From Gemmobacter caeni (GTDB taxonomy: Bacteria > Pseudomonadota > Alphaproteobacteria > Rhodobacterales > Rhodobacteraceae): a DNA stretch of 64,000 nucleotides. The notes under the pieces are model-generated. The model searched no databases. It had not been told where the DNA came from and saw only the letters and a list, made by a program, of their open reading frames with translations. Below are positions 1 through 15,668 of this stretch, one piece after another; position 1 is the first letter of the stretch; every line of letters begins with the position of its first letter. Location of the stretch: the NCBI RefSeq assembly GCF_003054195.1, contig NZ_QBKP01000010.1:18347-82346 (forward strand), read 5' to 3'. Position numbers and translations under genes: made by a program.

Positions 1-5
1 GAAAG

Positions 6-887
6 GGCTCTGTTGCAAACATGGGGCACGGCCGCGCGGCGTCACCCAGTTGGGGGATTAGGCAGCATTGGCGAAATGCTTATTGAGCATAATCATGGTT
101 TCGGTCAGGGCCGAGGGTCCAATTCCGAATGCTCTTTCAACCAGGCGCACCTCCCCCATGATACCTGGCTGCAGGCACCATGCCTGGGCCTGTCCTTTGC
201 GTAGGGCGCGCATGACCTCGAAGCCCTTGATCGTGGCGTAGGCCGTTGGCATCGACTTGAAGCCACGTACCGGCTTGATCAGCATCTTCAGCTTGCCGTG
301 GTCGGCCTCGAGCACGTTGTTCAGATATTTCACCTGCCGGTGCTCGGTTTCCGCCGCCAGTTTGCCTTCGCGTTTCAGCTCAGCGATTGCTGCGCCGTAG
401 CTGGGTGCCTTGTCGGTATTGAGTTTGGCCGGCTTTTCCCAGTCCTTCAGGCCACGAAGAGCTTTGCCCAGAAAGCGCTTCGCCGCTTTGGCGCTGCGTG
501 TCGATGACAGATAGAAATCAATCGTGTCGCCCCGTTTGTCGACCGCCCGGTACAGGTAGGTCCATTTGCCCCGCACCTTTACGTAGGTCTCATCCAGACG
601 CCAGCTCGGATCAAAGCCGCGCCGCCAGAACCAGCGGAGACGCTTCTCCATCTCCGGCGCGTAGCGCTGCACCCAGCGATAGATCGTCGTATGATCGACA
701 TCGATCCCACGCTCGGACAGCATTTCCTCGAGATCACGGTAGCTGATGCCGTATCGACAATACCAGCGCACCGCCCATAGGATGACCTCGCCGGTAAAAT
801 GCCGTCCTTTGAAATCGTTCATCGCAACTGACCTTGACAGTACATGAGCCCAATCTTGGAAACCGTGTCAGAGTTTGCAACAGAGCC
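6..887 (-). mobile_element. IS6-family insertion sequence (IS6100-like), copy 1
   Basis: A complete 882-bp element bounded by a perfect 15-bp terminal inverted repeat, GGCTCTGTTGCAAAC, with one transposase gene on the minus strand. A second copy with the same orientation and apparently identical sequence lies 14,781 bp downstream. The repeat begins like IS6100 (GGCTCTGTTGCAAA), but the transposase differs from IS6100 as I remember it, so this is a relative. The inner flank is CTCTCAAG, the same 8 bp as at the inner flank of copy 2. The outer flank is GAAAG, which matches the last five bases of the 8 bp outside copy 2. Confidence 0.95.
58..822 (-). CDS. IS6-family transposase, copy 1
   Basis: This 254-residue DDE transposase catalyses replicative transposition, the route by which IS6 elements fuse replicons into cointegrates. 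An N-terminal helix-turn-helix region (about 25-50) contains the family-typical stretch HTTIYRWVQRYAPEMEKR. The catalytic triad is visible as D77 (in LDETYVKV), D137 (in LNTDKAP) and E172 (in LEADHGKLK). The length is normal for the family and there is no frameshift. It fills nearly all of the element, leaving about 50-65 bp on each side for the terminal repeats. It should act on both copies in trans. Family assignment is certain; the exact IS name is not. Confidence 0.96.
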   Translation of the reverse strand: MNDFKGRHFTGEVILWAVRWYCRYGISYRDLEEMLSERGIDVDHTTIYRWVQRYAPEMEKRLRWFWRRGFDPSWRLDETYVKVRGKWTYLYRAVDKRGDTIDFYLSSTRSAKAAKRFLGKALRGLKDWEKPAKLNTDKAPSYGAAIAELKREGKLAAETEHRQVKYLNNVLEADHGKLKMLIKPVRGFKSMPTAYATIKGFEVMRALRKGQAQAWCLQPGIMGEVRLVERAFGIGPSALTETMIMLNKHFANAA

Positions 888-895
888 CTCTCAAG
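888..895. repeat. 8-bp target duplication CTCTCAAG, inner side of IS copy 1
   Basis: CTCTCAAG directly abuts the right end of IS copy 1 and recurs at 14779-14786 against the left end of copy 2. A duplication at the two inner junctions, rather than on both sides of one element, is the expected result of replicative fusion of two circular molecules. Confidence 0.93.
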
Positions 896-919
896 TATGT
901 GGAGTTCAGGCGACTTCAT
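888..919 (-). pseudogene. Severed 5' end of the plasmid P-loop kinase gene
   Basis: On the minus strand, ATG at 917-919 begins MKSPELHILER and then runs into the IS. Removing one copy of the 8-bp duplication and joining 896-919 to 14786-14199 gives a continuous frame, MKSPELHILERIEALRAELA, of 203 residues. These are therefore the first codons of the kinase whose body lies 13.3 kb away at the other end of the insert. The fragment shows that the insert is a circularly permuted plasmid. Confidence 0.9.
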
Positions 920-947
920 TGTTCAACCAATTTCGATGATGCTGCGT

Positions 948-1009
948 TGTCGCAAAAATTCCAAAACCCGCGACAGCTTTCTTGTCGCATAATAGGGATT
1001 TCCGCGACG
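948..1009. other. Putative res site of the adjacent serine resolvase
   Basis: Two imperfect dyads lie just upstream of the resolvase start. The first is TGTCGC-N16-GCGACA (948-975, 28 bp, the length of a Tn3-type crossover site). The second is TGTCGC-N15-GCGACG (983-1009). The same half-sites recur at 14006-14119. Position and layout suggest recombination or plasmid-multimer resolution, and perhaps autoregulation, because the dyads overlap the likely promoter. No third subsite is evident here. The function is inferred. Confidence 0.6.
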
Positions 1010-1033
1010 GTTTGCACGAGGTAGATTCCGGGC

Positions 1034-1627
1034 ATGTCGCCCACGAGGAAGCCCCTGCCCTTGCTTATCGGATATGCCCGCGTCTCGACCGACGGCCAGA
1101 CTCTCGACCAGCAGCGCGCGGCGCTGAAAGCGGCCGGCTGCAAGCGCGTGTTCGAGGAAAAGGCATCCGGCGCGCAGCGCGGCCGCCGCGAGCTGGCGAA
1201 GATGCTGGACCATTTGCAGCCCGGGAACGTGGTGACGGTGACGCGGCTTGATCGCCTCGCCCGATCGACGCGCGATCTTCTCGACATTGCTGAGCGGATC
1301 GGCCACGCCGAGGCCGGCTTGCGTTCGCTGGCCGAGCCGTGGGCCGACACGACGACGCCGGCCGGGCGCATGGTGCTGACTTTCTTCGCCGGCGTTGCCG
1401 AGTTCGAGCGCAGCTTGATCCATGAGCGCACGAGCGCCGGCCGCGCGGCGGCGAAGGCGAAGGGCGTTCGGTTCGGCCGCCCCCCTGCCCTGTCGGCCGA
1501 GCAGATCGCACACGCCCGCCAGCTCATCAGCGAGGACAAGAAGCCGGCCGAGGTTGCCCGGCTCTTGGGTGTGCATCGCTCTACCCTCTACCGGGCCATA
1601 GAACGCATTGACGTGGATACGCATTGA
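1034..1627 (+). CDS. Serine recombinase (resolvase family)
   Basis: This 197-residue resolvase/invertase probably resolves plasmid multimers or cointegrates at the res-like dyads just upstream. The N-terminal catalytic domain (about 10-140) has the nucleophile Ser18 in GYARVSTDGQ, and the arginine-rich stretch TRLDRLARSTRDL is typical of the family. The C-terminal region (about 150-190) is a helix-turn-helix of Hin/resolvase type (PAEVARLLGVHRSTLYRAIER). Length is normal for a small resolvase. It is the first gene at the left end of the plasmid insert. Whether it acts as resolvase or invertase cannot be read from sequence, but the adjacent paired dyads favour a resolvase. Confidence 0.9.
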   Translation: MSPTRKPLPLLIGYARVSTDGQTLDQQRAALKAAGCKRVFEEKASGAQRGRRELAKMLDHLQPGNVVTVTRLDRLARSTRDLLDIAERIGHAEAGLRSLAEPWADTTTPAGRMVLTFFAGVAEFERSLIHERTSAGRAAAKAKGVRFGRPPALSAEQIAHARQLISEDKKPAEVARLLGVHRSTLYRAIERIDVDTH

Positions 1628-1726
1628 CGCAACTACGTTTAGTCGCCCGGCCCTAGAAGTAGTGCCTTTCTCGCCCCCTTACGCAAAGGGTTGCAGAATC
1701 GGGCGATTTCGTCTCTTCATGTAGAC

Positions 1727-1942
1727 ATGGCGAGTCGCACCCGAGAACAAGTTAAGCTGGAAAGTGTCCGAAACCTGCGCGCCCGTTGGCGCGCGGAGGG
1801 CCGGATTCTTGTGCAGGCCGATCTGCCCGGCGAGCTGGTCGCGGCGATTGACCGCCTGAAGGACGACGCGGGCTTGCGAGGGCGCGCGCCGATCATCGAG
1901 GAAGCGTTGAGGTTCTATATCGAAGCGAAGCAAGGGACATAA
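1727..1942 (+). CDS. Small ribbon-helix-helix protein
   Basis: This 71-residue basic protein has a C-terminal segment (LVQADLPGELVAAIDRLKDD, then a helix ending EEALRFYIEAK) that resembles a CopG/Arc ribbon-helix-helix DNA-binding fold. I chose the ATG at 1727 (MASRTREQ); a TTG at 1691 would add 12 residues and has AAAGGG just before it. It lies between the resolvase and the replication gene and is followed at once by a strong terminator, so it is probably monocistronic. A role in copy control or plasmid regulation is plausible from position only. Confidence 0.6.
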   Translation: MASRTREQVKLESVRNLRARWRAEGRILVQADLPGELVAAIDRLKDDAGLRGRAPIIEEALRFYIEAKQGT

Positions 1943-1946
1943 CGGC

Positions 1947-1980
1947 AAAACGCCCGACCGTTGGCGCGGTCGAGCGTTTT
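1947..1980 (+). terminator. Rho-independent terminator after the small RHH gene
   Basis: The arms AAAACGCCCGACCG and CGGTCGAGCGTTTT pair over 13 of 14 positions around a short loop, starting 5 bp after the stop codon. The TTTT tract is part of the arm, so the structure could work in both directions. Confidence 0.75.
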
Positions 1981-2109
1981 ATAGGCCGTCAGACACACCG
2001 TAGAGCCGGGGCCATCAAAGTCTCCCCTTATCTACGCTAGAGCACTCCAATTCGCAAGATTGATTCTTGCGGAAACGGGGAAAGCTGTGCCTGCCGTCCG
2101 CGCTGTCAT

Positions 2110-2128
2110 GTCCTTCAAAAGGAAGGAC
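2110..2128 (+). promoter_or_regulatory. Leader hairpin close to the rep ribosome-binding site
   Basis: GTCCTTC, the loop AAAAG and GAAGGAC form a perfect 7-bp hairpin that holds an AAGGA-like Shine-Dalgarno sequence in its 3' arm, 8 bases before the rep start codon. A second candidate, GAGGG, lies just outside the stem. It could limit translation of the initiator, a common form of copy control. That role is inferred. Confidence 0.4.
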
Positions 2129-2136
2129 GAGGGCAT

Positions 2137-3015
2137 ATGTTGAGGACGCACTACGCGGCCGCGATCGGCTGCGCGCGCGGGAACGCGCTTGATGAAATCA
2201 TGCGGGAGGTTTGGACTCGATACGGCGCGGGCCAGCTCACCGACGACGAGGCCGGCGAGCTTACGACGCTCGCCCATGAGCGCCGGGCCGCCCTGCGGGG
2301 ATCGGGACAGACCGCGCTAGGGTTGATCTTTCCGCCCCCTGCCCCACGCTGCCCGACACCAGTTCGCCGGCATAGCCATATCCGGGGACGATCGGAGGGC
2401 CGCATATGGCGGCCGACGACGCGCAAGGACGTGCAGGCGATCTTGAAGGCGGCCGAAATCTACAACGAGGCCGGCTTGCACGAGAAGGGCGAGCGCAGCG
2501 GGCCGCTAGGATCGGTGGCGCTGGACGTGCTGCGGCTGTTCGTCAATCTCATCGACTTCCGCACCGGCCGGCTTGAGCCGTCAATCACCACGATCATGGA
2601 TCGGCTAGGCCGGTCGCGCGATACGATCGTGCGGGCGCTGAAGAATCTGCGGGCGCATGGCTTCATTGACTGGCTGCGGCGCTATGAGCCGACCGGGAAC
2701 GAAGGGCGCGGCCCACAGGTGCAGCAGGCCAGCAACGCCTATCGCCTGTCCCTGCCGGAGAAGGCCCGGCAGTTCCTTGGACGGTTCGGCAAGGCTCCAC
2801 CCCCGCCCGCCGATCATGGACAGGATCAGCGGGCTTGGAGCGAGGCAATCGACGCCTACAAGACCACCCTGCCCCTCGATGAGCGAACGCAGATCGACGC
2901 CGGCGATAGCCCGCTAGGACAGGCCCTTGTGCGCATGGCGAAAAACTTCATGAAACGTGAGTCCGATAACCAGACTGAATCCCCATCTGATCTTTATCTA
3001 AGAGGCAAAACATAA
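2137..3015 (+). CDS. Putative plasmid replication initiator (winged-helix protein)
   Basis: This 292-residue protein is probably the replication initiator of the 13.9-kb plasmid. The evidence is its position beside the partition genes, the absence of any other Rep candidate in the insert, and its resemblance to HTH-containing replication proteins of alphaproteobacterial plasmids. The central part (about 125-185) looks like a winged helix-turn-helix: GPLGSVALDVLRLFVNLIDF, then SITTIMDRLGRSRDTIVRAL and HGFIDWLRRYEP. The N-terminal 100 residues and the C-terminal tail show no motif I recognise. The start is supported by GAGGG three bases upstream. Two long hairpins follow the stop codon. It could instead be a plasmid regulator. 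Confidence 0.6.
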   Translation: MLRTHYAAAIGCARGNALDEIMREVWTRYGAGQLTDDEAGELTTLAHERRAALRGSGQTALGLIFPPPAPRCPTPVRRHSHIRGRSEGRIWRPTTRKDVQAILKAAEIYNEAGLHEKGERSGPLGSVALDVLRLFVNLIDFRTGRLEPSITTIMDRLGRSRDTIVRALKNLRAHGFIDWLRRYEPTGNEGRGPQVQQASNAYRLSLPEKARQFLGRFGKAPPPPADHGQDQRAWSEAIDAYKTTLPLDERTQIDAGDSPLGQALVRMAKNFMKRESDNQTESPSDLYLRGKT

Positions 3016-3020
3016 GCGGT

Positions 3021-3083
3021 CGCCGCTGTTCGGGCTGCTTACGCAGCCCTGCGGCGGTTCCGGCCCGCGTATAGGCGGGCCGG
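3021..3083. other. Two strong hairpins after rep (terminator or origin structure)
   Basis: CGCCGC/GCGGCG enclosing GGGCTGC-TTAC-GCAGCCC (3021-3056) is followed by a perfect 9-bp stem, CCGGCCCGC and GCGGGCCGG with a 6-base loop (3060-3083). Neither is followed by a T-run. They end the rep transcript or belong to an origin; sequence alone does not decide. The rest of the 277-bp gap up to the antitoxin gene contains the ACGTA-rich block listed next. Confidence 0.5.
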
Positions 3084-3182
3084 GAAACGGCACCCCCACT
3101 ACCTAATCCGCACCGCTCGCGCCTGCGACCAGCGTCCTATGGCTTTCGAGAGGGAGTGAAGGGCAAGGTCGGCGCTTAATTA

Positions 3183-3217
3183 TTTACGTTAATACGTATT
3201 GACGTGTAAACGTATTA
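3183..3217. promoter_or_regulatory. ACGTA-rich operator or centromere block before the toxin-antitoxin genes
   Basis: This AT-rich patch contains TTACGTTAATACGTATT and AAACGTATTA, with the palindrome AATACGTATT at 3191-3200. The same 10-bp palindrome is repeated at 3901-3910 in front of parA, and related ACGTA sequences flank the parB-like gene. A shared ribbon-helix-helix operator or a partition site are both possible. Confidence 0.5.
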
Positions 3218-3292
3218 CCTTGATAGAAGGCGATGGCGGCGGCCGGGAAAACGTGCTAGAGTGTACACAATTCAACACACGGAGGCGATTCC

Positions 3293-3562
3293 ATGACCGC
3301 CAGCACCACCATGACGATTCGGGTTAGGCCCGATGTGAAAGAAAAGCTCGACCGGATCGCGAACGACACGCAGCGAAGCAAATCCTTCCTCGCCGGCGAG
3401 GCCGTCGCCGCCTATGTCGATCGCGAGCTTGAAATCATCGACGGTATCAAGCGCGGCATGGCTGATGCAGCGGCCGGCCGAGTGATCCCCCATGCGCAGG
3501 CCGTCGCGGAAATGCGTGAGGTTATCGAGGAAGCGAAGCGCCGGAAAGCCGCGCGCGGATGA
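3293..3562 (+). CDS. ParD-like ribbon-helix-helix antitoxin
   Basis: This 89-residue antitoxin should bind and neutralise the toxin encoded immediately downstream and repress the pair. The N-terminal half is a ribbon-helix-helix domain: strand TMTIRVRPDVKEKLDRIA and helices ending in FLAGEAVAAYVDRELE. The acidic and basic C-terminal tail (EMREVIEEAKRRK) would wrap the toxin. Its stop overlaps the toxin start by four bases (ATGA), giving the usual translational coupling. GGAGGCGATTCC before the ATG is a good ribosome-binding site. The ACGTA block upstream is a candidate operator. A stability function for the plasmid follows from the family. Confidence 0.85.
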   Translation: MTASTTMTIRVRPDVKEKLDRIANDTQRSKSFLAGEAVAAYVDRELEIIDGIKRGMADAAAGRVIPHAQAVAEMREVIEEAKRRKAARG

Positions 3563-3864
3563 GGCCGGTTGTCTGGTCGATTGAGGCGCAGCGGGATAAC
3601 CTCGAAATCCTGCGCTATATCGCAGAGGACAACCCATTCGCCGCCGAACGGGTCGTGGATGCGATCGAGGACGCCGGGAACAAGCTCGGCGAATTTGCGA
3701 CCGGCCGGCCGGGGCGGGTGAGCGGAACCTATGAAAAGTCCCTCGCCCGTCATCCCTACATCATCGCCTATGAGCTGCGGGACGTGGGGGGCCGGGAAAG
3801 CGTCGTGATCGTGCGCGTCATCCACACGTCGCGCGACTGGCCGGCCGAGGAATGGCCGCACTAG
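3559..3864 (+). CDS. RelE/ParE-family toxin
   Basis: This 101-residue toxin belongs to the RelE/ParE superfamily. Typical features are the start VVWSIEAQRDNLEILRYIAEDNP, a central NKLGEFATGRPGRVSGTYE and the C-terminal strand SVVIVRVIHTSRDW with its conserved histidine. ParE proteins poison DNA gyrase and RelE proteins cut mRNA; the ParD-like partner favours the ParE type. It overlaps the antitoxin gene by four bases. Length is normal and there is no disruption, so the pair is probably active and would select for keeping the integrated plasmid. Confidence 0.85.
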   Translation: MRPVVWSIEAQRDNLEILRYIAEDNPFAAERVVDAIEDAGNKLGEFATGRPGRVSGTYEKSLARHPYIIAYELRDVGGRESVVIVRVIHTSRDWPAEEWPH

Positions 3865-3886
3865 CTTAAAGACGTAGTAACGTCCT

Positions 3887-3910
3887 TAGCTATATGCTTC
3901 AATACGTATT
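3887..3910. promoter_or_regulatory. AATACGTATT palindrome before parA
   Basis: TTAGCTAT followed by AATACGTATT lies 21 bp before the parA start. The palindrome is identical to that in front of the toxin-antitoxin pair, and TAGCTA is shared with the 19-bp repeats around the parB-like gene. It is a candidate operator or centromere element of the partition system. Confidence 0.5.
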
Positions 3911-3931
3911 CACGCAAAGAAGGATTGACGC

Positions 3932-4555
3932 ATGAACGTCATTGCGTTTTTGAGCCAGAAGGGCGGGAGCGGAAAAACCACGCTTTCGGTTCATACCGCC
4001 GTGGCGGCCGAGGCGACCGGCGAACGGGTTTGCGTCATCGACGCGGACCCACAGGAGAGCGCGACCGCATGGGCGAGCGCGCGGGAAGCCGGAACGCCGA
4101 TCGTCGCCACGGCGCAGGCCGGGGAGCTGGACGCCGCGCTTAGGGCGGCCGAGGGCGAGGGCATGACCTTGGCCGTAGTGGACGCCCCGCCCCATGCCGC
4201 CCCGGCGGCCGGCCAGATCGCCCGAAGGTCGGAGCTGGTCTTGATTCCGGTCAGACCGTCCGCGTTTGACCTCGCTGCGGTCCCGGCCGCCGTCGAGATC
4301 GTGGCGGCCGCGAAAGTGCGCGGCGCGTTCGTCCTGTCTGCCTGCCCGTTCCGTGCGCCCGAGATCGGGGAGACGCGCGCGGCGCTGGAAGCCTACGGAC
4401 TGCCGATCGTTCCCGGCGAGATTACCGACCGGCGCGCGTTCGCCCGCGCCGTCACGACTGGCAGCGCCGTGACGGAGTTCGAGGCCGAAGGGAAAGCAGC
4501 GGAGGAAATCCGGGCTTTGTGGGCGTGGATTAAAGGCACGTTAGAACGTAAATAG
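3932..4555 (+). CDS. parA: ParA-family partition ATPase
   Basis: This 207-residue ATPase belongs to the short ParA class and should position plasmid copies along the nucleoid with a small DNA-binding partner. The deviant Walker A motif KGGSGKTT is at residues 10-17 and the A' motif VIDADPQESATAW follows near residue 33. The switch region LAVVDAPPH is near residue 80. It lacks the N-terminal HTH of long ParA proteins, so regulation should fall to the partner gene 36 bp downstream. The ribosome-binding site AAGGA lies about 9 bases before the ATG. Confidence 0.9.
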   Translation: MNVIAFLSQKGGSGKTTLSVHTAVAAEATGERVCVIDADPQESATAWASAREAGTPIVATAQAGELDAALRAAEGEGMTLAVVDAPPHAAPAAGQIARRSELVLIPVRPSAFDLAAVPAAVEIVAAAKVRGAFVLSACPFRAPEIGETRAALEAYGLPIVPGEITDRRAFARAVTTGSAVTEFEAEGKAAEEIRALWAWIKGTLERK

Positions 4556-4564
4556 CTAAATACG
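4546..4564. repeat. 19-bp direct repeat, copy A (putative parS or operator)
   Basis: ACGTAAATAGCTAAATACG overlaps the end of parA and occurs again, without mismatch, at 4890-4908 just after the parB-like gene. Each copy is an imperfect palindrome centred on TAGCTA. Flanking the partition partner gene is a usual place for a centromere or operator. Confidence 0.6.
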
Positions 4565-4591
4565 TAAGCGCGTATTGAAGGAGCGAAACCT

Positions 4592-4888
4592 ATGGCAAAG
4601 AAAGCAACCGGCCTCGCGGCCTTCACCCGCCCGAAGGCCGGCGCGGAGGCCACCAGCCTTGCAGCGATCGAGGACGATCGCCCGGCCGTGGAAATCCCGA
4701 CGCCGAGGCGAAAGAGGGGAGGGGGCGAGACTGTCGCGCTTACGGTCAAGGTCCGGCGATCGGACTGGCAGCGCCTTCGCCAGCTCGCGGATGCAGAGGG
4801 AACGACAATTCAGGCGATGGCCGAGGCCGGGCTTTCGGCGGTTCTGGCACAGCACGGATTGCCGCCGATCGAGCCTTATGCACGTTGA
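4592..4888 (+). CDS. Small ParB-like partition partner
   Basis: This 98-residue protein follows parA and is its likely DNA-binding partner. The N-terminal half is basic and low in structure, ending in TPRRKRGGG. The C-terminal half (TVALTVKVRRSDWQRLRQLA and a second helix, TIQAMAEAGLSAVLA) resembles a ribbon-helix-helix domain, as in the small ParB-type partners of short ParA proteins. Exact 19-bp repeats flank the gene on both sides and are the obvious candidate binding sites. The start follows AAGGAGCGAAACCT. It is not a homologue of the large ParB/Spo0J proteins. Confidence 0.7.
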   Translation: MAKKATGLAAFTRPKAGAEATSLAAIEDDRPAVEIPTPRRKRGGGETVALTVKVRRSDWQRLRQLADAEGTTIQAMAEAGLSAVLAQHGLPPIEPYAR

Positions 4889-4889
4889 T

Positions 4890-4908
4890 ACGTAAATAGC
4901 TAAATACG
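4890..4908. repeat. 19-bp direct repeat, copy B (putative parS or operator)
   Basis: The copy of ACGTAAATAGCTAAATACG is identical to the one at 4546-4564. It begins one base after the parB-like stop codon and is preceded by TTGAT, so an ACGT-TGATACGTA run extends the motif. Confidence 0.6.
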
Positions 4909-4930
4909 CTAATGCTTGCGCGCGTGGCCC

Positions 4931-4984
4931 GCCCCCCGGCCGTCCCTACGGCCCTAGATGATGAGAGCGGGCCGGCCGGGGGGC
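4931..4984. other. Perfect 12-bp inverted repeat between convergent genes
   Basis: GCCCCCCGGCCG (4931-4942) and CGGCCGGGGGGC (4973-4984) are perfectly complementary across a 30-base loop. They sit between the parB-like gene and the convergent traG-like gene, so a two-way terminator is the simplest reading. Nothing else was recognised in the roughly 270-bp gap. Confidence 0.5.
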
Positions 4985-5160
4985 TATCGTCGCGGCCGTG
5001 GCGTTTCCCTGAATAGAGCTTGCACCAGGTCGGCGGGTGGATCGCGGCGCAAGCCGCGCCGGCCCGGAGGCGAACGCGCTCCCCAATAGCGCCGTAGAGA
5101 GCCGGAGGGCCGTTCGTAACAAAGTCCCGGCGCTATGCGCCGGGTCCGCTTCTTGTCACG

Positions 5161-6825
5161 TCAGGCAGCGTCATACAGCCCCCGGAACTCTGCATCGGCA
5201 TAATAGGCGAGCTTGCCGGCGACGATCGGCCGTTGCCCGGCGAGGAACAGCAATTCGACATGCTGCGGCAGGTTGCGGACCTCATCGGGGGTCAGCAGCG
5301 GGCGGGCCGTGTGTTGCTCGCCGTAGGAGATGCCGGATTTATCGGAATCGAGCGCCCGGCTCATGGTCTGGAACACAACGGTTTCCTGCCCGAGCAGATC
5401 GGAGACAAGCCGGGCGCTGTCGTGATCGTTGACGCCGAACACCTGTAGGACGCCGGCATTTGACAGGAAGGTGCCGGCGCGTTGCCCGTAGGTGGCGCGG
5501 AGCTGGTGAACGTCTTGCAGGATCGGCCAGAGCTGGACGCCGTAGCCGGCCATGAGGCCCATTGCGCGCTCGACGGGGGCCAGATGGCCGAGGGCGGCGA
5601 ACTCATCGAGCAGATAGAGGACCGGCACGGCCGGCTTGGCGGGATCGCGGGCCATGTCGGTGAGGCTTTGCGCGACGAGCAGGCGCAGCCAGCGGGAATA
5701 GGTGGCGAGCCGATCGGGCGGCAGGACGAGGAACACCGAGACGTTGCGGCGCTTGAGATCGGCAAAGCCGAAATCGGATCGGTCGAGGACGGCGACCATG
5801 CGCGGGCTGTCGAGGAAATGGGTATGGCGCTGCGCGGCCGAGAGGACGCCGGCCGCCTCGCGGTCGGATTTGCCGAGGTGGCGGTTTGCAGCGCGGGCGA
5901 TCAGGCCGGAGGCGGCCGTTGATGCCTGCATGTCCTTCAGGAGCGCCGCGAAGGCTTCAGGGGCGAGGGTGAGATATTCGCGCAGGGTGGCGAGGTTCCG
6001 CCTGTCGCGCGGCGCGCTGGCGGCAATATGGAGGATCAGGCCGGCAATGAGCGCCTTGGCTTCCTCGTTCCAATGCGCTTCGCCGGCCATGCCCGGTTCA
6101 TCGAACACGAGGGCGTCGGCCAAGGTGCTTGCATCTTCCGCGACATCGAGGCCGGCCGGGTCGAGCTGGTCGAGGGGATTGAAGGCGGCCGAGGGCTGGC
6201 CGGTGACGCCGAAGGGGTCGAGGACATGGACCGGGCCGAATTGCTGGCGGGCGCGGCCGGCGATCTTGGCATTTTCGCCCTTGGGGTCGATGCAGATCAC
6301 GGAGCGGTCGGCGGTGAGCAGGTTGGGGATGATGGTTCCCACCCCTTTGCCGGTGCGCGTCGGTGCCATCGTCAGCAGATGGGCCGGGCCGTCATAGCGC
6401 AGGAGCTTTCCGGTCTTGCCGTCGCGGCCGATCAGCAGGCCGGAATCGGCGCGGGCGAGGGCGGCGGTTTCCTTGTCGGTGGCGAAGCGGGCCGAGCCGT
6501 GGGTTTCGCCGTCCATATCCCCGAAATGGATAATCAGCGGATTGGTGAGGAAGCGGAAGGCGAGCGCCAGCAGCACCAGCAGCGTGACGAGATCGAGCAG
6601 GAGAACCGGAACCGAGCCGACGCGAAAGCCGATTTGTTCGAGAGCGAAGCGGCCGCCGAAGCCGACGACGAACAGGACGATAACAAGGAGGAACAGAAGC
6701 CCGAGAAGCGGTTTCCAGATGCGGAAAGGTGCGGCGAGCAGAGCGACGAACGCCCATAGCGGATCACGCGCGGCCTGCCGCACCATGTTCTTGAACGCAC
6801 CCCATGCAAGTCTCGCCTGACTCAT
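5161..6825 (-). CDS. traG: TraG/VirD4-type coupling protein (T4CP)
   Basis: This 554-residue inner-membrane ATPase couples the relaxosome to a type IV secretion channel. Two N-terminal membrane segments (about 41-57 and 71-95) precede the cytoplasmic motor. The Walker A motif is APTRTGKG (about 154-161) and the Walker B motif is LYLLDEFAALG (near 415). The stretch MAGYGVQLWPILQD is also typical of the VirD4/TraG family. No mating-pair-formation genes are present, so transfer would need a helper. Its start overlaps the end of the upstream accessory gene by four bases. Confidence 0.93.
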   Translation of the reverse strand: MSQARLAWGAFKNMVRQAARDPLWAFVALLAAPFRIWKPLLGLLFLLVIVLFVVGFGGRFALEQIGFRVGSVPVLLLDLVTLLVLLALAFRFLTNPLIIHFGDMDGETHGSARFATDKETAALARADSGLLIGRDGKTGKLLRYDGPAHLLTMAPTRTGKGVGTIIPNLLTADRSVICIDPKGENAKIAGRARQQFGPVHVLDPFGVTGQPSAAFNPLDQLDPAGLDVAEDASTLADALVFDEPGMAGEAHWNEEAKALIAGLILHIAASAPRDRRNLATLREYLTLAPEAFAALLKDMQASTAASGLIARAANRHLGKSDREAAGVLSAAQRHTHFLDSPRMVAVLDRSDFGFADLKRRNVSVFLVLPPDRLATYSRWLRLLVAQSLTDMARDPAKPAVPVLYLLDEFAALGHLAPVERAMGLMAGYGVQLWPILQDVHQLRATYGQRAGTFLSNAGVLQVFGVNDHDSARLVSDLLGQETVVFQTMSRALDSDKSGISYGEQHTARPLLTPDEVRNLPQHVELLFLAGQRPIVAGKLAYYADAEFRGLYDAA

Positions 6826-7127
6826 GCGGCCGTCCCCCCGGCGCTGCCTGTCGTCTCCCCGGCCGGCGCGTTGTCGATCAGGTCGGCAAACAGTTCCTTG
6901 TCACCGGGGCGCGTCAGGAAGTCGGGCAGCTCACGCTTGAGCCATTCGCCCAAGCGCCGGGAAAATTCTTCATCCTTGCCGTGTTCGAGGCGATGCAGGA
7001 CGAGCGCGCCGAGCAGCACCTTGCGGCGCGTGTCGTTGGCGCGTTCCTGCTTCGACAGACGGGCCTTGAGCGTGGCACGCTGCGCATCCAGTTCGGCCAA
7101 GCGTTGTTCGATCGTTTTGCGCGCCAT
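6822..7127 (-). CDS. Mobilisation accessory protein (TraC/TraD-like)
   Basis: This 101-residue charged, largely helical protein begins MARKTIEQRLAELDAQRATLKARLSKQER, a coiled-coil-like opening typical of the small accessory proteins beside MobQ/Ti-type relaxases. It lies between oriT and the coupling protein gene, with which it overlaps by four bases, so both are translated from one leftward transcript. It probably helps assemble the relaxosome. The assignment rests on position and general character, not on a catalytic motif. Confidence 0.7.
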   Translation of the reverse strand: MARKTIEQRLAELDAQRATLKARLSKQERANDTRRKVLLGALVLHRLEHGKDEEFSRRLGEWLKRELPDFLTRPGDKELFADLIDNAPAGETTGSAGGTAA

Positions 7128-7310
7128 TCCTCAAATCTCCTTTTCCGGTTGTTCGCCTAGACTATCATTCCCGACCGTCTTTTCCAGCGTTTGCCTGTTG
7201 CGCTTGAGTTTTCAGCGGTTTTGCAGCACAATTCCGGCCTCAGTTCATTGCATCGACCTTGCCGCGAGCGCCACACCGATCAGCGAAAGAGCGTAGCGAT
7301 TGAGTTGAGA

Positions 7311-7340
7311 AGGGCGCACTTACGAGTTACTGCGTAACTC
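7311..7340 (-). other. oriT: oriT of RSF1010/MobQ type
   Basis: Read on the minus strand, a perfect hairpin (GAGTTAC, loop GCA, GTAACTC) is followed at once by GTAAGTGCGCCCT. This reproduces the RSF1010-type oriT layout, in which an inverted repeat precedes the nick region TAAGTGCG/CCCT. It lies between the divergent accessory gene and the TraA relaxase gene, as expected. The predicted nick falls between G and C within GTGCG|CCCT. The rest of the 271-bp intergenic region must also carry both promoters. Confidence 0.85.
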
Positions 7341-7398
7341 AGCGCGCCGCCAGCTTGGAGGCTGGCGGGAAAGGCGGAAACGGGATCGAGGCAACGGG

Positions 7399-10300: not shown

Positions 10301-11001
10301 GCGGTATGTTCGCCGGCCTCAAGCTCAATGCGCGTCCTGCCCCCTCACAGGAGCGCACAGAGCGGCCGGAAAGGGAAGGGAGCTTGCGGCAGGCGCCTGC
10401 GCCCGACCGGCTGGCCGAGCGGGCGCGGGGGCAGTCGCCGCTTGAGGCCGCCGTTGACCGCTATTCGCGGGCCTATCAGTCGATCGACCAGCACCGGCGC
10501 GAGGGCTTGCCGGTCCTCGACATGCAGCGGCAGGAAATAGGCGATGCCGGCCGGCAGCTCGACCAGGTGCAGGGCGGCATGAAAGATTTGCTGCGCTCGA
10601 CGTTGCAAAACGACCCGGCGACGGTGCGCGCCATGACCGAGCTTTCCGGCCGGGAGCGTGTCGCGCAGGTTATCGACGGGATGAAGCGCGAAAACGCGGC
10701 GCTGCAAGACCCGAATATCAGGGCCGAGCGGTTCGTTGAACGCTGGCAGGAGCTACAGGGCCAGCGCCGGGAGCTTCGCGGCTGGCAGCACGACGATGCC
10801 CGCGCCAAGGTCGAAAGCCAGATGAACGGCATGACCAAGAGCCTTGAGCGTGACCCGCAGGTAGATTCCATCCTGCGCAATCGCCGTCAGGAACTCGGAA
10901 TCGGGCAGCAGCAGCGCCGGGGGCAGAGCATCGCCCACGAGCTGCAAGAGGAAATGTCACGCAGCCGGCAACTTAGCCGGGGCATCGGTTTGGGAAGGTA
11001 G
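7399..11001 (+). CDS. traA: TraA-type MobQ relaxase with C-terminal helicase
   Basis: This 1200-residue two-part protein nicks oriT and unwinds the transferred strand. The MobA/MobL relaxase domain (about 1-240) starts MAIYHFSMKPVSRAGGRSAV, has the likely nucleophile tyrosine in ASMAYRAG (about residue 25) and the metal-binding histidines in NHHAHLLMTTR. A RecD-like helicase follows, with Walker A GYAGAGKST (about 400) and Walker B VFVIDEAGM (about 465). The C-terminal 350 residues are charged and repetitive, with LKLGRRAA and LKLNARPA segments. The start is a TTG; using the first ATG would remove the conserved MAIYH strand. Length matches Ti-plasmid TraA proteins. Confidence 0.93.
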   Translation: MAIYHFSMKPVSRAGGRSAVASMAYRAGEKLTNERDGITHDYTAKQGVEHAEIVLPEGVNADWARDRSDLWNAAEFAEKRKDARVAREFEIALPHELSAEQRLEAAREMAQELADRYGAAVDFAIHAPHEASDVRNHHAHLLMTTRQVTEGGLGDKTYLERENKWLLAHDLPTTDMQLRDLRQRWEGIANERLAMAGLDIRIDHRSHMERGLEIAPTEHMGVHATQMERRGLDVSRSRLDEEAARRNAELIREKPEQVLTLITGEKSVFDRHDVARALHRYINDDPQEFQSAFAKVMASPALVELQPERADPATGEIELARYSTREMVEIESGMIESAQRMHGAHGHGVDRRHVERAIDRQDAAIQRSAGDASARLSDEQRRAIEHITGPERIAAVVGYAGAGKSTMLAAAREAWEAEGYQVHGAALSGKAAEGLEESSGIQSRTLASWSRGWENDRGTLGRGDVFVIDEAGMVGSRQLARFVGEAEARGAKIVLVGDHEQLQAIGAGAPFRAITEEIGHAELSEIRRQRVDWQREASVDFATHRTAEGLAAYRDRGNISFAETGEDARGQIVRDYLADRDERPDGTRVAMAHRRADVRAINDAIRAELQDRGELAQGEDAGALTFQTNDGKREFAPGDRIVFLENNRDLGVKNGMLGTVDHVEPGRIIATLDGRGGDSVSVPMGDYQAIDHGYATTIHKNQGATVDRAYVMASGTMDRHLTYVAMTRHRDGVQLYAAQDEFTNAGRLVEHGAAPYEHDPQKSDSYFVTLENDKGEQRTLWGVDLERAMKEAAPEIGEKIGLQHEGSTPVTLPDGTQTHRNTWKVQDAGELAYSQLERRLSRSGVKETTLDYTRDFAERRGIAEQMGVRSEIEIPAERTGLRAERESTAGDHALDRRSSQKVRADLAQDLRADPREDLAGDRQQRQRPFEGLKLGRRAAPESREPDRAGADGPQIDQKRPQQAEKQRRGMFAGLKLNARPAPSQERTERPEREGSLRQAPAPDRLAERARGQSPLEAAVDRYSRAYQSIDQHRREGLPVLDMQRQEIGDAGRQLDQVQGGMKDLLRSTLQNDPATVRAMTELSGRERVAQVIDGMKRENAALQDPNIRAERFVERWQELQGQRRELRGWQHDDARAKVESQMNGMTKSLERDPQVDSILRNRRQELGIGQQQRRGQSIAHELQEEMSRSRQLSRGIGLGR

Positions 11002-11012
11002 GCACGGAGAAT

Positions 11013-11771
11013 ATGGCGGAGCTGGACGACGACAGGGAAGGAATCGAGCCGGAAGCACTGGACGAGGACGCCGGCGACCCGGCCGCCGCGTTCGACGCGC
11101 TCCGGCGCACGATCGAGACGCAGGGCGCGCAGATCGGCGCGGAAATGACCGTGATGCGGCGCGGGCTGGAAGCGGCTTTCGACCAGCTCGAAAAGATCGA
11201 GCCGGCGCAGGACTACAAGCCCCAGCTCGCCCAGCTCGTGCAGGCGCTCGACAATGTTGCGGAGCGGCTGCACGGCGTAGAGCAATCGCCTATTCTCCGG
11301 CAGGGTGCGACACACTATGCGGCGCTCCTCGAGCGCAGCGGCGAGGCCCTGATACGCACCGCCGCGCAGCAGCTCGAGCGGCAGGCGTCCGACCTCGAGC
11401 GCGCCGGCCGGAACCTCGCCGCTCATACGAAAAGCGCCTACGACCGGAAAAGTCAGGATTTCCGCATATGGATGGCCGGCCTTGTCGGGCTGTTCGTCGG
11501 CATATTCCTGATTTTGCTGTTGCCGCGTTTCCTGCCCTTCTCGGCCGACACCCATGTTGCGGCGACCGTCATAGGTCAGGACCGATGGAACGCCGGCGTC
11601 ACCATGATGCGGGTGGCCGATCCCCGAAGCTGGCGCGGCGTGGCCGATTCCTCGCAGCTCGTGCGCGACAATGCCGAGGCGATCGGGCAATGCGCCGAGG
11701 CCGCGCGCACGGCCGGTTCAGATCAGCAATGCACCATCACCGTGAAAGCGCCGGCAGCACCGGCGCAGTAG
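11013..11771 (+). CDS. Membrane protein, probably DUF6118 family
   Basis: This 252-residue protein starts 11 bp after traA and is probably co-transcribed with it. The first 150 residues are charged and helical (FDALRRTIETQGAQIGAEM, QQLERQASDLERAGRNLAAH), suggesting a coiled coil. One membrane segment follows (WMAGLVGLFVGIFLILLLP, about 152-170), and the last 80 residues carry two cysteines (about 230 and 243). I associate this layout with the DUF6118 proteins found next to traA on alphaproteobacterial mobilisable plasmids. Its function is unknown; a structural role in transfer is only a guess from position. Confidence 0.65.
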   Translation: MAELDDDREGIEPEALDEDAGDPAAAFDALRRTIETQGAQIGAEMTVMRRGLEAAFDQLEKIEPAQDYKPQLAQLVQALDNVAERLHGVEQSPILRQGATHYAALLERSGEALIRTAAQQLERQASDLERAGRNLAAHTKSAYDRKSQDFRIWMAGLVGLFVGIFLILLLPRFLPFSADTHVAATVIGQDRWNAGVTMMRVADPRSWRGVADSSQLVRDNAEAIGQCAEAARTAGSDQQCTITVKAPAAPAQ

Positions 11772-11790
11772 GGTTGTGGGGGGACACCAG

Positions 11791-12357
11791 TTATTTCGGG
11801 AGGTTTTCTTCCGCCTCAACAGGTCCGGCGGCCATCGCGACGAGGCGCGCCGCGATACGCTTGCGCAGTTGCTCGGGGAGCGGGCGCGACGACAGCGCCT
11901 CGTGAATCCACAGCCCATCGGCGGCAAGGCGCGAAATGAACCTGTCCAACTCGGCAGCGTCGTTTCCAATCGGCGCAGGAGGTGCCCAGCGGTCGATGAC
12001 CTGTTGCCACAGATCGCCAAGCTGCCGATTGTCGGAGCTTTCCAGCATGAGCAGTAGTTCGACCCGCCGGGCAGCTCTTGCGCAGGTGTTGATGTAGGCG
12101 GCGTGTCGTTCGGCGTCTGTCGCCCTGTCCGAGGTGTTGCCGGCGCTCGCTTCCAGCTCCTGTTCCCATGAGCGAGTCAGATGCTCATGGGTGGCGAGGA
12201 TCAGGGCTTCGCGCGACGGGAAATGATACAGAAGGCCGGCGCGTGTCATGCCGGTTTCGAGCGCTACGGCGTCGAGGGTGACGGCGGTGAGGCCGTCACG
12301 CTCGATGATGCTCACAATGGCTTCAAGCACTTCGAGGCGCTTGCTGGCTCTCGCCAT
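11791..12357 (-). CDS. TetR-family repressor of the adjacent exporter
   Basis: This 188-residue regulator has an N-terminal TetR HTH (about 8-55): VLEAIVSIIERDGLTAVTLDAVALETGMTRAGLLYHFPSREALI is the canonical pattern. The C-terminal helical part would bind the inducer. It lies 10 bp downstream of the MFS exporter gene on the same strand, so both form one transcript and the repressor is probably self-regulated through the palindrome upstream of the exporter. The effector is likely a substrate of the pump. Confidence 0.88.
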   Translation of the reverse strand: MARASKRLEVLEAIVSIIERDGLTAVTLDAVALETGMTRAGLLYHFPSREALILATHEHLTRSWEQELEASAGNTSDRATDAERHAAYINTCARAARRVELLLMLESSDNRQLGDLWQQVIDRWAPPAPIGNDAAELDRFISRLAADGLWIHEALSSRPLPEQLRKRIAARLVAMAAGPVEAEENLPK

Positions 12358-12367
12358 GTCGGCTTCC

Positions 12368-13879
12368 TTAGTGTTGTGTGGGATAGGCTGACGATTGCGA
12401 GCCGGGACCGTAGCGCCGCAACAGGATGCCGGTGATCAGGGCACCCACGGCCAGAACACCCGCCGCCACGTACATGACGACCGTATAGGCGTGGTCGAAT
12501 GCGATTCCTGCCGCTTGACGCACGACAACACCATCGGCCCCCGCCTCGTTGGCAAAGACCAGCGCCGACGCCATGCTGTCGCGGGCCGCTTCCGAGGTTC
12601 CGGCGGGGAACACGACGTTGACCGTATAGAGGTAGGCCAAAAGACTTCCGAGAATTGTGACAGCGAACAGACTGCCAAACTCGTAGGACACTTCCTCGAC
12701 CGACGACGCCATGCCGGCGCGATGCACAGGCACATTGCCCACAATAGCCGTTGATGCCACCGACATTGTTGCACCTACGCCGGCACCGGTCAGCGCCAGA
12801 CCGGCGATCAGCCAGCCAAGGCCATGAGTGATGCCCCATGTCGCAAGCAGGACCGCCAGCGATCCCGCCGCAAGCCCGCCAGCTATAAGGATACGTAGGC
12901 CAATACGATGCAGGAATGCACCACCGAGCAGCGCAGTCGGCAATGATCCGAGCGCCGCCGCCGAAACCAGCATCCCGGCTTCCAGCGGCGTGAAGCCCGC
13001 AACGAGCTGGAAGCGTTGCGTCGTAGCAAGCTCAACACCGCCGATGGCGAACAGGGAGAACGCGGCCGCTAGAACGCCCGATGTGAACGCGGCATTGCGG
13101 AAGATCGAGAAGTCGAGCAGCGGGAACGGCAGGCGCAGTTGCCGGCGGACGAACAGCGCTCCGGCGAGGATGGCAACCAGCAGCGAAATAGCGGGGACGG
13201 CCCACGACTGCCCGGCATGGGCAGATTCCTTGATCGCGATCACAAAAGCCGACAGCGCCACCAATGCCTGAAACGACGACACCACGTCCCAAGGCTTGGT
13301 CGCATCGCCGGCCACCTTCGGCGCAACGATCAGCGCCGAAATGAAGGCAGCGACCACTACCGGCACATTGATGAGGAACACCGACCCCCACCAGAAATGG
13401 CCGAGCAGAAAACCGCCGATGATCGGTCCGAGCGCAGCGCCGACGACCGACAACGACCCCCAGATCGCAATGGCGATGTTGCGTTCCCGGTCATCCTCGA
13501 AGGTGACGCGGATGAGGGCGAGTGTCGCGGGCATCATCGCCGCCGCGCCGACCGCCAGAAAGGCCCGCGCCCCGATCAGGATTTCCGCTGTAGGCGAATA
13601 GGCCGCCACAATCGACGCGACACCGAACAGCACGAGGCCGATGAGGAACATGCGCCGGTGACCGATCCTGTCACCCAGCGTCCCGGTGCCGAGCAGCAGG
13701 CCGGCCATGACGAGGGGGTATGCGTTGATGATCCACAACCCTTGCGTTGCCGTCGCGCCAAGCTCGCGCGTCAGGGTAGGCAGGGCCGTGTAGAGGACCG
13801 AATTGTCCAGAACGATAAGCAGGAGACCGGCGGCGACGGTCACCAGAAGAACCCAGCGGTTCGAGTGGGCGGCAGGCAT
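12368..13879 (-). CDS. MFS drug exporter, DHA2 (SmvA/QacA-like) family
   Basis: This 503-residue, 14-segment proton-driven exporter is the main phenotypic cargo of the plasmid. The DHA2 signature is present: LLLIVLDNSVLYTALPTL with the conserved acidic residue in the first segment, LWIINAYPLVMAGLLL in the second, and the motif-A loop GTLGDRIGHRRMFLIG. Motif C-like glycine runs (GAALGPIIGGFLLG) follow in segment 5. Members export quaternary ammonium compounds, dyes or methyl viologen; the substrate here cannot be told. It forms an operon with tetR and is preceded by a TetR-type operator. Confidence 0.88.
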   Translation of the reverse strand: MPAAHSNRWVLLVTVAAGLLLIVLDNSVLYTALPTLTRELGATATQGLWIINAYPLVMAGLLLGTGTLGDRIGHRRMFLIGLVLFGVASIVAAYSPTAEILIGARAFLAVGAAAMMPATLALIRVTFEDDRERNIAIAIWGSLSVVGAALGPIIGGFLLGHFWWGSVFLINVPVVVAAFISALIVAPKVAGDATKPWDVVSSFQALVALSAFVIAIKESAHAGQSWAVPAISLLVAILAGALFVRRQLRLPFPLLDFSIFRNAAFTSGVLAAAFSLFAIGGVELATTQRFQLVAGFTPLEAGMLVSAAALGSLPTALLGGAFLHRIGLRILIAGGLAAGSLAVLLATWGITHGLGWLIAGLALTGAGVGATMSVASTAIVGNVPVHRAGMASSVEEVSYEFGSLFAVTILGSLLAYLYTVNVVFPAGTSEAARDSMASALVFANEAGADGVVVRQAAGIAFDHAYTVVMYVAAGVLAVGALITGILLRRYGPGSQSSAYPTQH

Positions 13880-13907
13880 GATAGCACCATTCAGTGAGAG
13901 TAGCCAA

Positions 13908-13931
13908 ACTTTACAGACAAGTTAGTAAAGT
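13908..13931. promoter_or_regulatory. TetR-type operator upstream of the exporter
   Basis: The perfect 7-bp arms ACTTTAC and GTAAAGT are separated by 10 bp, 28 bp before the exporter start codon. It is the only good dyad in the exporter leader and the expected site for the TetR protein encoded in the same operon. Confidence 0.7.
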
Positions 13932-14005
13932 ATCAAGCGCCTGCCCGTGAGGAACTTCAGACAATGGCCGACAGCGGGGCTTCGCATTCCGGGGCGCGAT
14001 CAATT

Positions 14006-14119
14006 TGTCGCGAAATTCCTGATTTTTGCGACAAAATCGCCGGCGCTGATTTTGCAGGGAAAAATCTGTCGCAAAAATCAGGTGCGAAAGTCAAACTTGT
14101 GCGACTGACTTTCGCGACA
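14006..14119. other. Second res-like array with three resolvase half-site dyads
   Basis: Three elements are visible: TGTCGC-N16-GCGACA (14006-14033, 28 bp), TGTCGC-N11-GCGA (14067-14087) and TGTGCG-N10-GCGACA (14098-14119). The first has the same length and half-sites as the dyad next to the resolvase gene. In the plasmid circle this array and the one at 948-1009 flank the kinase gene. It fills much of the 319-bp gene-free stretch between the exporter and the kinase; nothing else was recognised there apart from the operator. Confidence 0.6.
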
Positions 14120-14198
14120 CGTCGCGGCCCGGATTCCGCGCCGCTGCGGACGTGGTGCAGGTTTCAGGATTTGCGCGACATAAGGGGCGCGAAGGAAT

Positions 14199-14810
14199 TT
14201 AATTCTGGATCACCAGATCAAAAGACCTTGGCGGGCAGACGCGCTCGAAATAGTAGCTTTCAACATCGTCCCAAACAGCGTGCCACGCGGCTAAAAAGCC
14301 CTCCGCGCCCTGTTCGCGCGCAGCAGTCCGTTCATGCCGCACTTTGGTCGGCACATCCACGATCACGGCGAGGTCGATCAAATCCCGAAGGAACGGAGAT
14401 GCGGAATAAGCTCCTTCGAGCAGAATCGTGGGCGCTGGCGCGACTTCGGTAAATTCGTTCTTGAGGCTGTAAGTGCCATCCGGGCCTAGTCCCTGCATGA
14501 AGTCGAAAGCTCGCCACTGTGCAGGTTCCCCCTTGCGTAGAGGCTCTATTGCCTCGCGAACGCGGTCCCACTCAAAAACGCGATTCAACCGCTCCGCCAC
14601 GGTTTTGTGAGGCCACTCGGATTCGGGAACCTGCGTTTGATAGAAATCATCGAGCGTAACCAAGGCTATGTCGGTCAGCTTCGCCAACCTTGCCGCAATC
14701 GTTGACTTACCGGAGCCGCTTCCCCCGTCAAGCGCCACGACAACAGGACGTGCGAGTTCGGCGCGGAGGGCTTCTATTCTCTCAAGGGCTCTGTTGCAAA
14801 CATGGGGCAC
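14199..14810 (-). CDS. Uridine-kinase-like P-loop kinase with IS-supplied start
   Basis: This 203-residue P-loop kinase resembles the uridine kinase/phosphoribulokinase superfamily. The Walker A motif is GGSGSGKST (about 29-37), followed by TLDDFYQT (the lid and substrate-binding part of uridine kinases) and ILLEGAYSA. The natural first eight codons (MKSPELHI) lie at 896-919 beyond IS copy 1. Here the end of IS copy 2 supplies a GTG and eight in-frame codons (MPHVCNRA), so the frame keeps its original length. The P-loop is untouched, so the product may still work if translated; no good ribosome-binding site is visible. The substrate is unknown. Confidence 0.8.
   Translation of the reverse strand: MPHVCNRALERIEALRAELARPVVVALDGGSGSGKSTIAARLAKLTDIALVTLDDFYQTQVPESEWPHKTVAERLNRVFEWDRVREAIEPLRKGEPAQWRAFDFMQGLGPDGTYSLKNEFTEVAPAPTILLEGAYSASPFLRDLIDLAVIVDVPTKVRHERTAAREQGAEGFLAAWHAVWDDVESYYFERVCPPRSFDLVIQN
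14779..14786. repeat. 8-bp target duplication CTCTCAAG, inner side of IS copy 2
   Basis: This is the partner of 888-895. It encodes the LERI codons of the kinase on the minus strand, so the duplication lies inside that gene. Confidence 0.93.
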
Positions 14811-15668
14811 GGCCGCGCGGCGTCACCCAGTTGGGGGATTAGGCAGCATTGGCGAAATGCTTATTGAGCATAATCATGGTTTCGGTCAGGGCCGAGGGTC
14901 CAATTCCGAATGCTCTTTCAACCAGGCGCACCTCCCCCATGATACCTGGCTGCAGGCACCATGCCTGGGCCTGTCCTTTGCGTAGGGCGCGCATGACCTC
15001 GAAGCCCTTGATCGTGGCGTAGGCCGTTGGCATCGACTTGAAGCCACGTACCGGCTTGATCAGCATCTTCAGCTTGCCGTGGTCGGCCTCGAGCACGTTG
15101 TTCAGATATTTCACCTGCCGGTGCTCGGTTTCCGCCGCCAGTTTGCCTTCGCGTTTCAGCTCAGCGATTGCTGCGCCGTAGCTGGGTGCCTTGTCGGTAT
15201 TGAGTTTGGCCGGCTTTTCCCAGTCCTTCAGGCCACGAAGAGCTTTGCCCAGAAAGCGCTTCGCCGCTTTGGCGCTGCGTGTCGATGACAGATAGAAATC
15301 AATCGTGTCGCCCCGTTTGTCGACCGCCCGGTACAGGTAGGTCCATTTGCCCCGCACCTTTACGTAGGTCTCATCCAGACGCCAGCTCGGATCAAAGCCG
15401 CGCCGCCAGAACCAGCGGAGACGCTTCTCCATCTCCGGCGCGTAGCGCTGCACCCAGCGATAGATCGTCGTATGATCGACATCGATCCCACGCTCGGACA
15501 GCATTTCCTCGAGATCACGGTAGCTGATGCCGTATCGACAATACCAGCGCACCGCCCATAGGATGACCTCGCCGGTAAAATGCCGTCCTTTGAAATCGTT
15601 CATCGCAACTGACCTTGACAGTACATGAGCCCAATCTTGGAAACCGTGTCAGAGTTTGCAACAGAGCC
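14787..15668 (-). mobile_element. IS6-family insertion sequence (IS6100-like), copy 2
   Basis: The second complete 882-bp copy has the same terminal repeats and orientation as copy 1 and apparently the same sequence. The 8 bp to its right, GCCGAAAG, belong to a host gene; their last five bases match the five bases to the left of copy 1 at the window edge. This fits an outer 8-bp duplication of the host target. Confidence 0.95.
14839..15603 (-). CDS. IS6-family transposase, copy 2
   Basis: This 254-residue protein is identical to the one encoded by copy 1, including the DDE residues D77, D137 and E172. Identity of both copies shows that the duplication is recent or maintained by recombination. 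Two direct copies 14 kb apart also allow RecA-dependent deletion of the plasmid, leaving a single IS. Confidence 0.96.
   Translation of the reverse strand: MNDFKGRHFTGEVILWAVRWYCRYGISYRDLEEMLSERGIDVDHTTIYRWVQRYAPEMEKRLRWFWRRGFDPSWRLDETYVKVRGKWTYLYRAVDKRGDTIDFYLSSTRSAKAAKRFLGKALRGLKDWEKPAKLNTDKAPSYGAAIAELKREGKLAAETEHRQVKYLNNVLEADHGKLKMLIKPVRGFKSMPTAYATIKGFEVMRALRKGQAQAWCLQPGIMGEVRLVERAFGIGPSALTETMIMLNKHFANAA

Follow-up and report, generated by a model that had tools for sequence, protein, structure and literature searches.

A 13.9-kb mobilisable plasmid between two direct IS6-family copies in Gemmobacter caeni: a supported past fusion as read from a short-read assembly

Cointegrates formed by IS6100 and by other insertion sequences (IS) of the IS6 family such as IS26 are the closest described systems to the locus analysed here, and the class of mechanism is already known. 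The window, a 64,000-nucleotide stretch of Gemmobacter caeni DNA (bases 18347-82346 of contig C10, in a genome of 5.1 Mb and 80 contigs), begins with a 13,899-bp insert lying between two copies of an 882-bp IS6-family element to which we gave the working name ISx. ISx resembles these systems in its DDE transposase, its 14-bp ends, its 8-bp duplications and the presence of direct copies at replicon boundaries. It differs from IS6100 itself, to which it is 83% identical over a 754-bp core with an exact match of 14 bp at each end, and the linkage described here is read from a short-read assembly. In IS6 cointegrates, according to the consulted part of PMC7986276, the duplications of donor and target are distributed between the two IS copies; the pBK32533-type IS26 cointegrate described there shows the same flank logic (X-IS-Y and Y-IS-X) but unites two plasmids, whereas here the partners are a plasmid and a chromosomal gene.

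Two plasmids resemble the insert. The MOBQ plasmid pAMI2 of Paracoccus aminophilus (NC_010847.2; 85.2% identity over 41% of the query) has a like gene order of recombinase, ribbon-helix-helix (RHH) protein, helix-turn-helix protein in the Rep position, ParA-type ATPase, TraA, DUF6118 protein and cargo, but its toxin-antitoxin pair follows the par genes rather than preceding them and its cargo, dimethylformamidase, is another one. Plasmid unnamed5 of Roseomonas sp. FDAARGOS_362 (NZ_CP024589.1; 92.8% over 74% of the query) has the relaxase, coupling protein, DUF6118, recombinase, Rep-position and toxin-antitoxin genes in common with the insert; it carries a phosphotransferase gene in place of the MFS/kinase cargo, and ParA is absent from its gene table.

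A plasmid-chromosome fusion at some past time is well supported. In the history that we favour, at a probability of about 0.7, ISx would have entered the kinase gene of a 13,891-bp pAMI2-type mobilisable plasmid, creating the CTCTCAAG duplication; the ISx-bearing plasmid would have been transferred into a host of the genus Gemmobacter; and one copy-in (replicative) reaction of ISx into a chromosomal YkuD/AstE-like gene would have created the GCCGAAAG duplication together with the fusion. Three parts of this history are our inference: which insertion came first, that the reaction was copy-in, and that ISx came from sphingomonads. At this locus a whole plasmid, within 3 to 6 single-base changes (and one small inversion) of its copies in four other assemblies, has IS6 junctions with a chromosomal gene.

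Junctions of the insert and IS-free copies of the plasmid

The junctions and the two interrupted genes are as follows (window positions).

1..5, last five bases (GAAAG) of the left outer duplication; GCCGAAAG is complete at C10:18149-18156, past a gap of N
6..887, minus strand, IS6-family copy 1, 882 bp, with 14-bp terminal inverted repeats GGCTCTGTTGCAAA; transposase at 58-822 on the minus strand
888..895, inner duplication CTCTCAAG, left copy, read from the sequence
888..919, minus strand, 5' end of the interrupted kinase gene; flanks contiguous in six IS-free relatives
14199..14780, minus strand, uridine-kinase-like P-loop protein (profile searches), 3' part of the interrupted gene
14779..14786, inner duplication CTCTCAAG, right copy; IS6100 adjoins the same base in four other records
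14787..15668, minus strand, IS6-family copy 2; transposase at 14839-15603
15669..15676, outer duplication GCCGAAAG, right copy, read from the sequence
15669..15863, plus strand, 3' end of the interrupted host gene; YkuD and AstE/AspA-type domains in an intact relative

The initial annotation, made from the window alone, described two identical direct IS copies with the same 8 bp at their inner edges, and this was borne out, with 882 of 882 bp identical in direct orientation and CTCTCAAG at both edges. It also anticipated GCC before GAAAG at the left flank; GCCGAAAG is indeed present on C10, where it is followed by 93 bp of ISx and then by 97 N before the window begins. With CTCTCAAG and GCCGAAAG each present twice, the locus has the 8-bp target duplications that the IS6/IS26 family requires, and the two direct copies share out the old and the new duplication as in an IS6 cointegrate. 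An explanation by chance repeats was rejected, because two unlike 8-bp duplications each recur on either side of the insert, far more than chance would give, and relatives have uninterrupted sites. The insert less one 8-bp copy comes to 13,891 bp, and the proposed circle with replication, partition, toxin-antitoxin and mobilisation functions was confirmed in size and, with a Rep-like gene for replication, in genes.

Of ten other genomes of the genus, three (G001, G002 and G010) align to the full 1,157 bases of the left host flank; in each, this alignment and that of the right flank have just the 8-bp site in common. The host gene is therefore uninterrupted in these relatives, as had been expected of it without the insertion; this was judged from alignment coordinates in G002 and also from the printed bases in G001 and G010, whose empty sites read GCGGAAAG and GCCGAAAG, respectively. 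YkuD and AstE/AspA domains are found both in the intact G001 gene and in the left gene piece here, and the counterpart in G002 lies on a 3.38-Mb contig, which fits the earlier view that the plasmid had been joined to a large replicon.

The ISx transposase is of the IS6-type DDE kind (NF033587, 280.7 bits against a cut-off of 125; PF13610, 171.8 against 27), the terminal inverted repeats are the same as in IS6100, and the element is 2 bp above the 789-880 bp family range quoted in the part of PMC7986276 consulted. A DNA search of the 80 contigs found only two full copies, which also carry the only IS6-type transposase domains in the genome. The third DNA match, at C10:18157-18249, was considered as an older copy and rejected, this 93-bp match being a contig end that overlaps the window start by 98 bp. 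That the two full copies are identical says little about their age, since a repeat collapsed by a short-read assembler can be written out twice. Elsewhere, 16 of the 29 plasmid records that matched ISx do so at 99% identity or more, and every one of these comes from a sphingomonad; the element stands at 100% identity on many sphingomonad plasmids. Ten distinct full ISx places on plasmid records were sampled of 82 found (12 listed, minus one repeat and one without a complete right end); none of the ten has matching 8-bp flanks, whereas both window duplications are perfect, and no motif of target preference was seen by eye at them.

In the genome collection, the kinase is present at 100% identity in 7 of 56 kinase-bearing loci. 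With the three plasmid copies and the one here, identical kinase copies number 11, of which six are uninterrupted, one carries ISx and four adjoin IS6100. Four contigs cover the whole circle, in Peteryoungia (13,891 bp, with a terminal redundancy of 0 bp and 4 single-base changes relative to the window), Rhizobium (13,986 bp, 95 bp, 5 changes), Microvirga (13,968 bp, 77 bp, 3 changes) and an alphaproteobacterial metagenome-assembled genome (MAG; 13,990 bp, 99 bp, 6 changes), each with a net length of 13,891 bp. The Microvirga copy also differs by an inversion of about 175 bp, within which identity is 97.7%. Changes private to the window lie at insert bases 6190 and 8221, which four other copies cover, and 11168, which ten cover. 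A 13.9-kb plasmid with an intact kinase, as the initial annotation supposed, thus exists in four assemblies, IS-free, at exactly 13,891 bp and with the kinase uninterrupted, and the circular contigs suggest that it can replicate autonomously.

None of 210 matching plasmid records covered 80% of the insert in one place. No relative of the kinase was found in viral_contigs, and 5426 E. coli genomes gave one partial record only. A search of the genome itself for SSU rRNA gave no match. Literature searches on Gemmobacter IS6 elements, on alphaproteobacterial IS6 cointegrates, on identical plasmids and on SPAdes gaps and misassembly found nothing on this plasmid among the papers listed. Separately, one contig of Sphingobium ummariense RL-3 holds insert bases 1-4700 and 13145-13899 at 100% without the rest, so there the rep-par-kinase part has become joined to other DNA.

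Present state and history of the probable fusion

The genome is a short-read de Bruijn assembly with k=95, because overlaps between contig tips cluster at exactly that length. Among the 100 of 160 tips compared (the starts of C1-C60 and the ends of C1-C40), 71 tip pairs began with 40 bp or more in common, and in 60 of these the shared stretch was exactly 95 bp; all five end-to-end overlaps were 95 bp. At the gap left of the window, 97 N and a 98-bp overlap of the flanking sequences sum to 195. About 0.57 Mb inspected contained just one further gap flanked by sequence on each side, on C57 (locus L194, 1336-1434), with 99 N and a 96-bp overlap, again 195; C51 starts with 2,500 N and is uninformative in this respect. 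Since both sums equal 100 + 95, the gaps are placeholder-like, and the left-edge link looks like a fixed 100-N placeholder of which a few bases were filled in later. SPAdes writes such placeholders on passing through a loop; a literature search gave no support for this.

We compared a fused molecule with the resolved alternative, in which chromosome and circle each keep a single IS. Counted with multiplicity, the k-mers of the two states agree at all nine lengths tried between 96 and 886 and disagree from 887 upwards. Because of this identity up to 886 bases, the short-read assembly cannot tell the fused from the resolved state and a present fusion is not demonstrable from it; a fused form, a resolved form or a mixture in the sequenced cells is compatible with the assembly. 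The claim that the fusion had been caught before any resolution, with its junctions intact, is consequently not supported, given the k=95 assembly, the placeholder-like left link and the shared k-mers. More generally, when a short-read assembly shows a fusion at direct IS repeats, this is not evidence of present integration.

The placeholder-like link is one of several points that weigh against the history we favour. Among 24 plasmid matches none was a free plasmid whose kinase holds ISx; three of them have the same kinase, with IS6100 beside it in all three. Searches of 394, 397 and 385 genomes for the kinase region at 100% returned only this genome and a Sphingobium record (755/887 bases).

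There is close to an even chance that the present state is a resolved one, in which the assembler chained a chromosome and a free 14,781-bp plasmid that each hold a single IS. The k=95 graph, the sum of 195 at both two-sided gaps and the equal k-mer content all agree with this, and because the rep-like, par and toxin-antitoxin genes are retained the plasmid should be able to live free. On the other side, both joins were written by the assembler, and IS6100 cointegrates can be stable, as the part of PMC1590026 consulted indicates. That fused and resolved forms occur together in one culture is conceivable, though we would put it short of even: the consulted text of PMC7986276 records that direct IS copies can resolve through RecA, but the IS6100 cointegrates with the chromosome that PMC1590026 describes, in the sections consulted, were stable in Corynebacterium glutamicum and showed no loss. 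Both of these readings concern the present state and the two that follow concern the history, so their likelihoods do not sum to one.

As to that history, the initial annotation invoked intermolecular replicative transposition of an IS6 element. The flank pattern does fit the cointegrate model as published in PMC7986276, in the part consulted, but the same sequence would result if two earlier insertions had recombined, and the two routes are indistinguishable here. In one such scenario, which we consider unlikely, the chromosome had already received ISx from another replicon, and homologous recombination or a targeted conservative IS reaction between the existing copies then produced the fusion. 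The same product and duplications would be expected, and the consulted part of PMC7986276 gives IS26 cointegrates as about 100-fold more frequent if the target also holds the IS; only two full copies are present in this genome, however, and a separate earlier donor must therefore have been lost. It is similarly improbable that the direction was the reverse, with a chromosomal ISx attacking the IS-free plasmid and CTCTCAAG the newer duplication. The sequence pattern is symmetrical and 6 of the 11 identical kinase copies are unbroken, as this would allow, but a chromosomal IS would be needed in a genome otherwise without one, and ISx is typical of sphingomonad plasmids. Plasmid-borne ISx followed by copy-in fusion remains our preferred history.

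IS6100 at the same kinase site

In Pseudomonas mangrovi, Enterobacter kobei, E. roggenkampii and Pantoea stewartii, IS6100 adjoins the same kinase nucleotide in the same orientation as ISx does here. These four gammaproteobacterial records hold the kinase-side junction only, the other plasmid flank being absent, and the E. kobei IS6100 is shortened by IS26. Up to 1.8 kb of sul1-side DNA is shared among the four, and they probably stem from one event. If targeting were uniform, a second element would land on this base in this orientation in about 1 in 27,800 cases, or 1 in 2,090 if the kinase and spacers alone are counted, both figures having been calculated after the fact for a single coincidence. 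The shared site is thus poorly predicted by random targeting.

We somewhat doubtfully entertain two readings of this, namely that the CTCTCAAG site is a true IS6 hot spot or that one IS6 element replaced a non-identical one end for end. The former runs against a reported lack of target preference for IS6100 in 172 insertions (PMC1590026, part consulted). The latter runs against a reported need, in the consulted part of PMC7885326, for the same transposase and for identity that extends far in from the reacting end if related elements are to form cointegrates. According to that same part, 16 common end bases were insufficient for reaction at that end in tests with IS1006/IS1008 and IS26, which are other elements than the two here; with 14 exact end bases between ISx and IS6100, exchange by the targeted conservative route is not supported.

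A single origin of the ISx and IS6100 insertions was also considered. Insert base 11159 (window 12046) is T in two empty copies and all four IS6100 copies, and C in three empty copies and the ISx copy. That all four combinations of base and IS state occur speaks against a single origin; two insertions, recombination or repeated mutation would account for it. The site common to ISx and IS6100 offers a concrete test of IS6 site choice or exchange.

Plasmid genes and spread of the cargo

Between the two kinase pieces, the insert encodes the following.

1034..1627, plus strand, serine recombinase, resolvase family; TGTCGC-containing DNA directly upstream, res-like by eye
1691..1942, plus strand, RHH (CopG type) protein, by profile search
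2137..3015, plus strand, probable replication protein; helix-turn-helix, named by position and by a relative annotated replication protein A
3293..3562, plus strand, RelB/CopG-like antitoxin, below the NCBIfam cut-off
3559..3864, plus strand, ParE-family toxin, by profile search
3932..4555, plus strand, ParA partition ATPase, by profile searches
4592..4888, plus strand, RHH-like protein in the position of a partition partner, below the Pfam cut-off
5161..6825, minus strand, VirD4/TraG-type coupling protein, above the Pfam cut-off and below NCBIfam cut-offs
6822..7127, minus strand, mobilisation protein; no family match, named after its counterpart in the Roseomonas plasmid table
7399..11001, plus strand, MOBQ / Ti-type TraA relaxase-helicase, by profile searches
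11013..11771, plus strand, DUF6118 protein, by profile search
11791..12357, minus strand, TetR-family regulator (cargo), by profile search
12368..13879, minus strand, MFS efflux-type transporter (cargo); best NCBIfam model SmvA family, below cut-off

The probable replication protein gave no Rep family match of its own in profile searches. Short repeats of the type TACGTATTGACG lie around the rep, toxin-antitoxin and par genes (at 1600-1645, 3175-3220, 3885-3930, 4536-4580 and 4880-4908) and are possible iterons or partition sites.

Within window 11084-14786, the TetR-MFS cargo, partly together with the DUF6118 and kinase genes, is found at 99.9-100% identity on Citrobacter, Enterobacter and Pantoea plasmids and on a Pseudomonas contig, and in four of these five records it adjoins sul1-side DNA and IS6100. 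Because the plasmid here is an environmental one and the Citrobacter and Enterobacter plasmids with this cargo come from people, such traffic is of practical interest.

The stretch at 14006-14180, with TGTCGC/GCGACA motifs that are res-like by eye, is a rearrangement spot. It is inverted in the Microvirga copy, carries an 18-bp insertion in a MAG copy and lies near the match start in the Sphingobium ummariense mosaic. The plasmid's own serine recombinase is a likely cause of these rearrangements.

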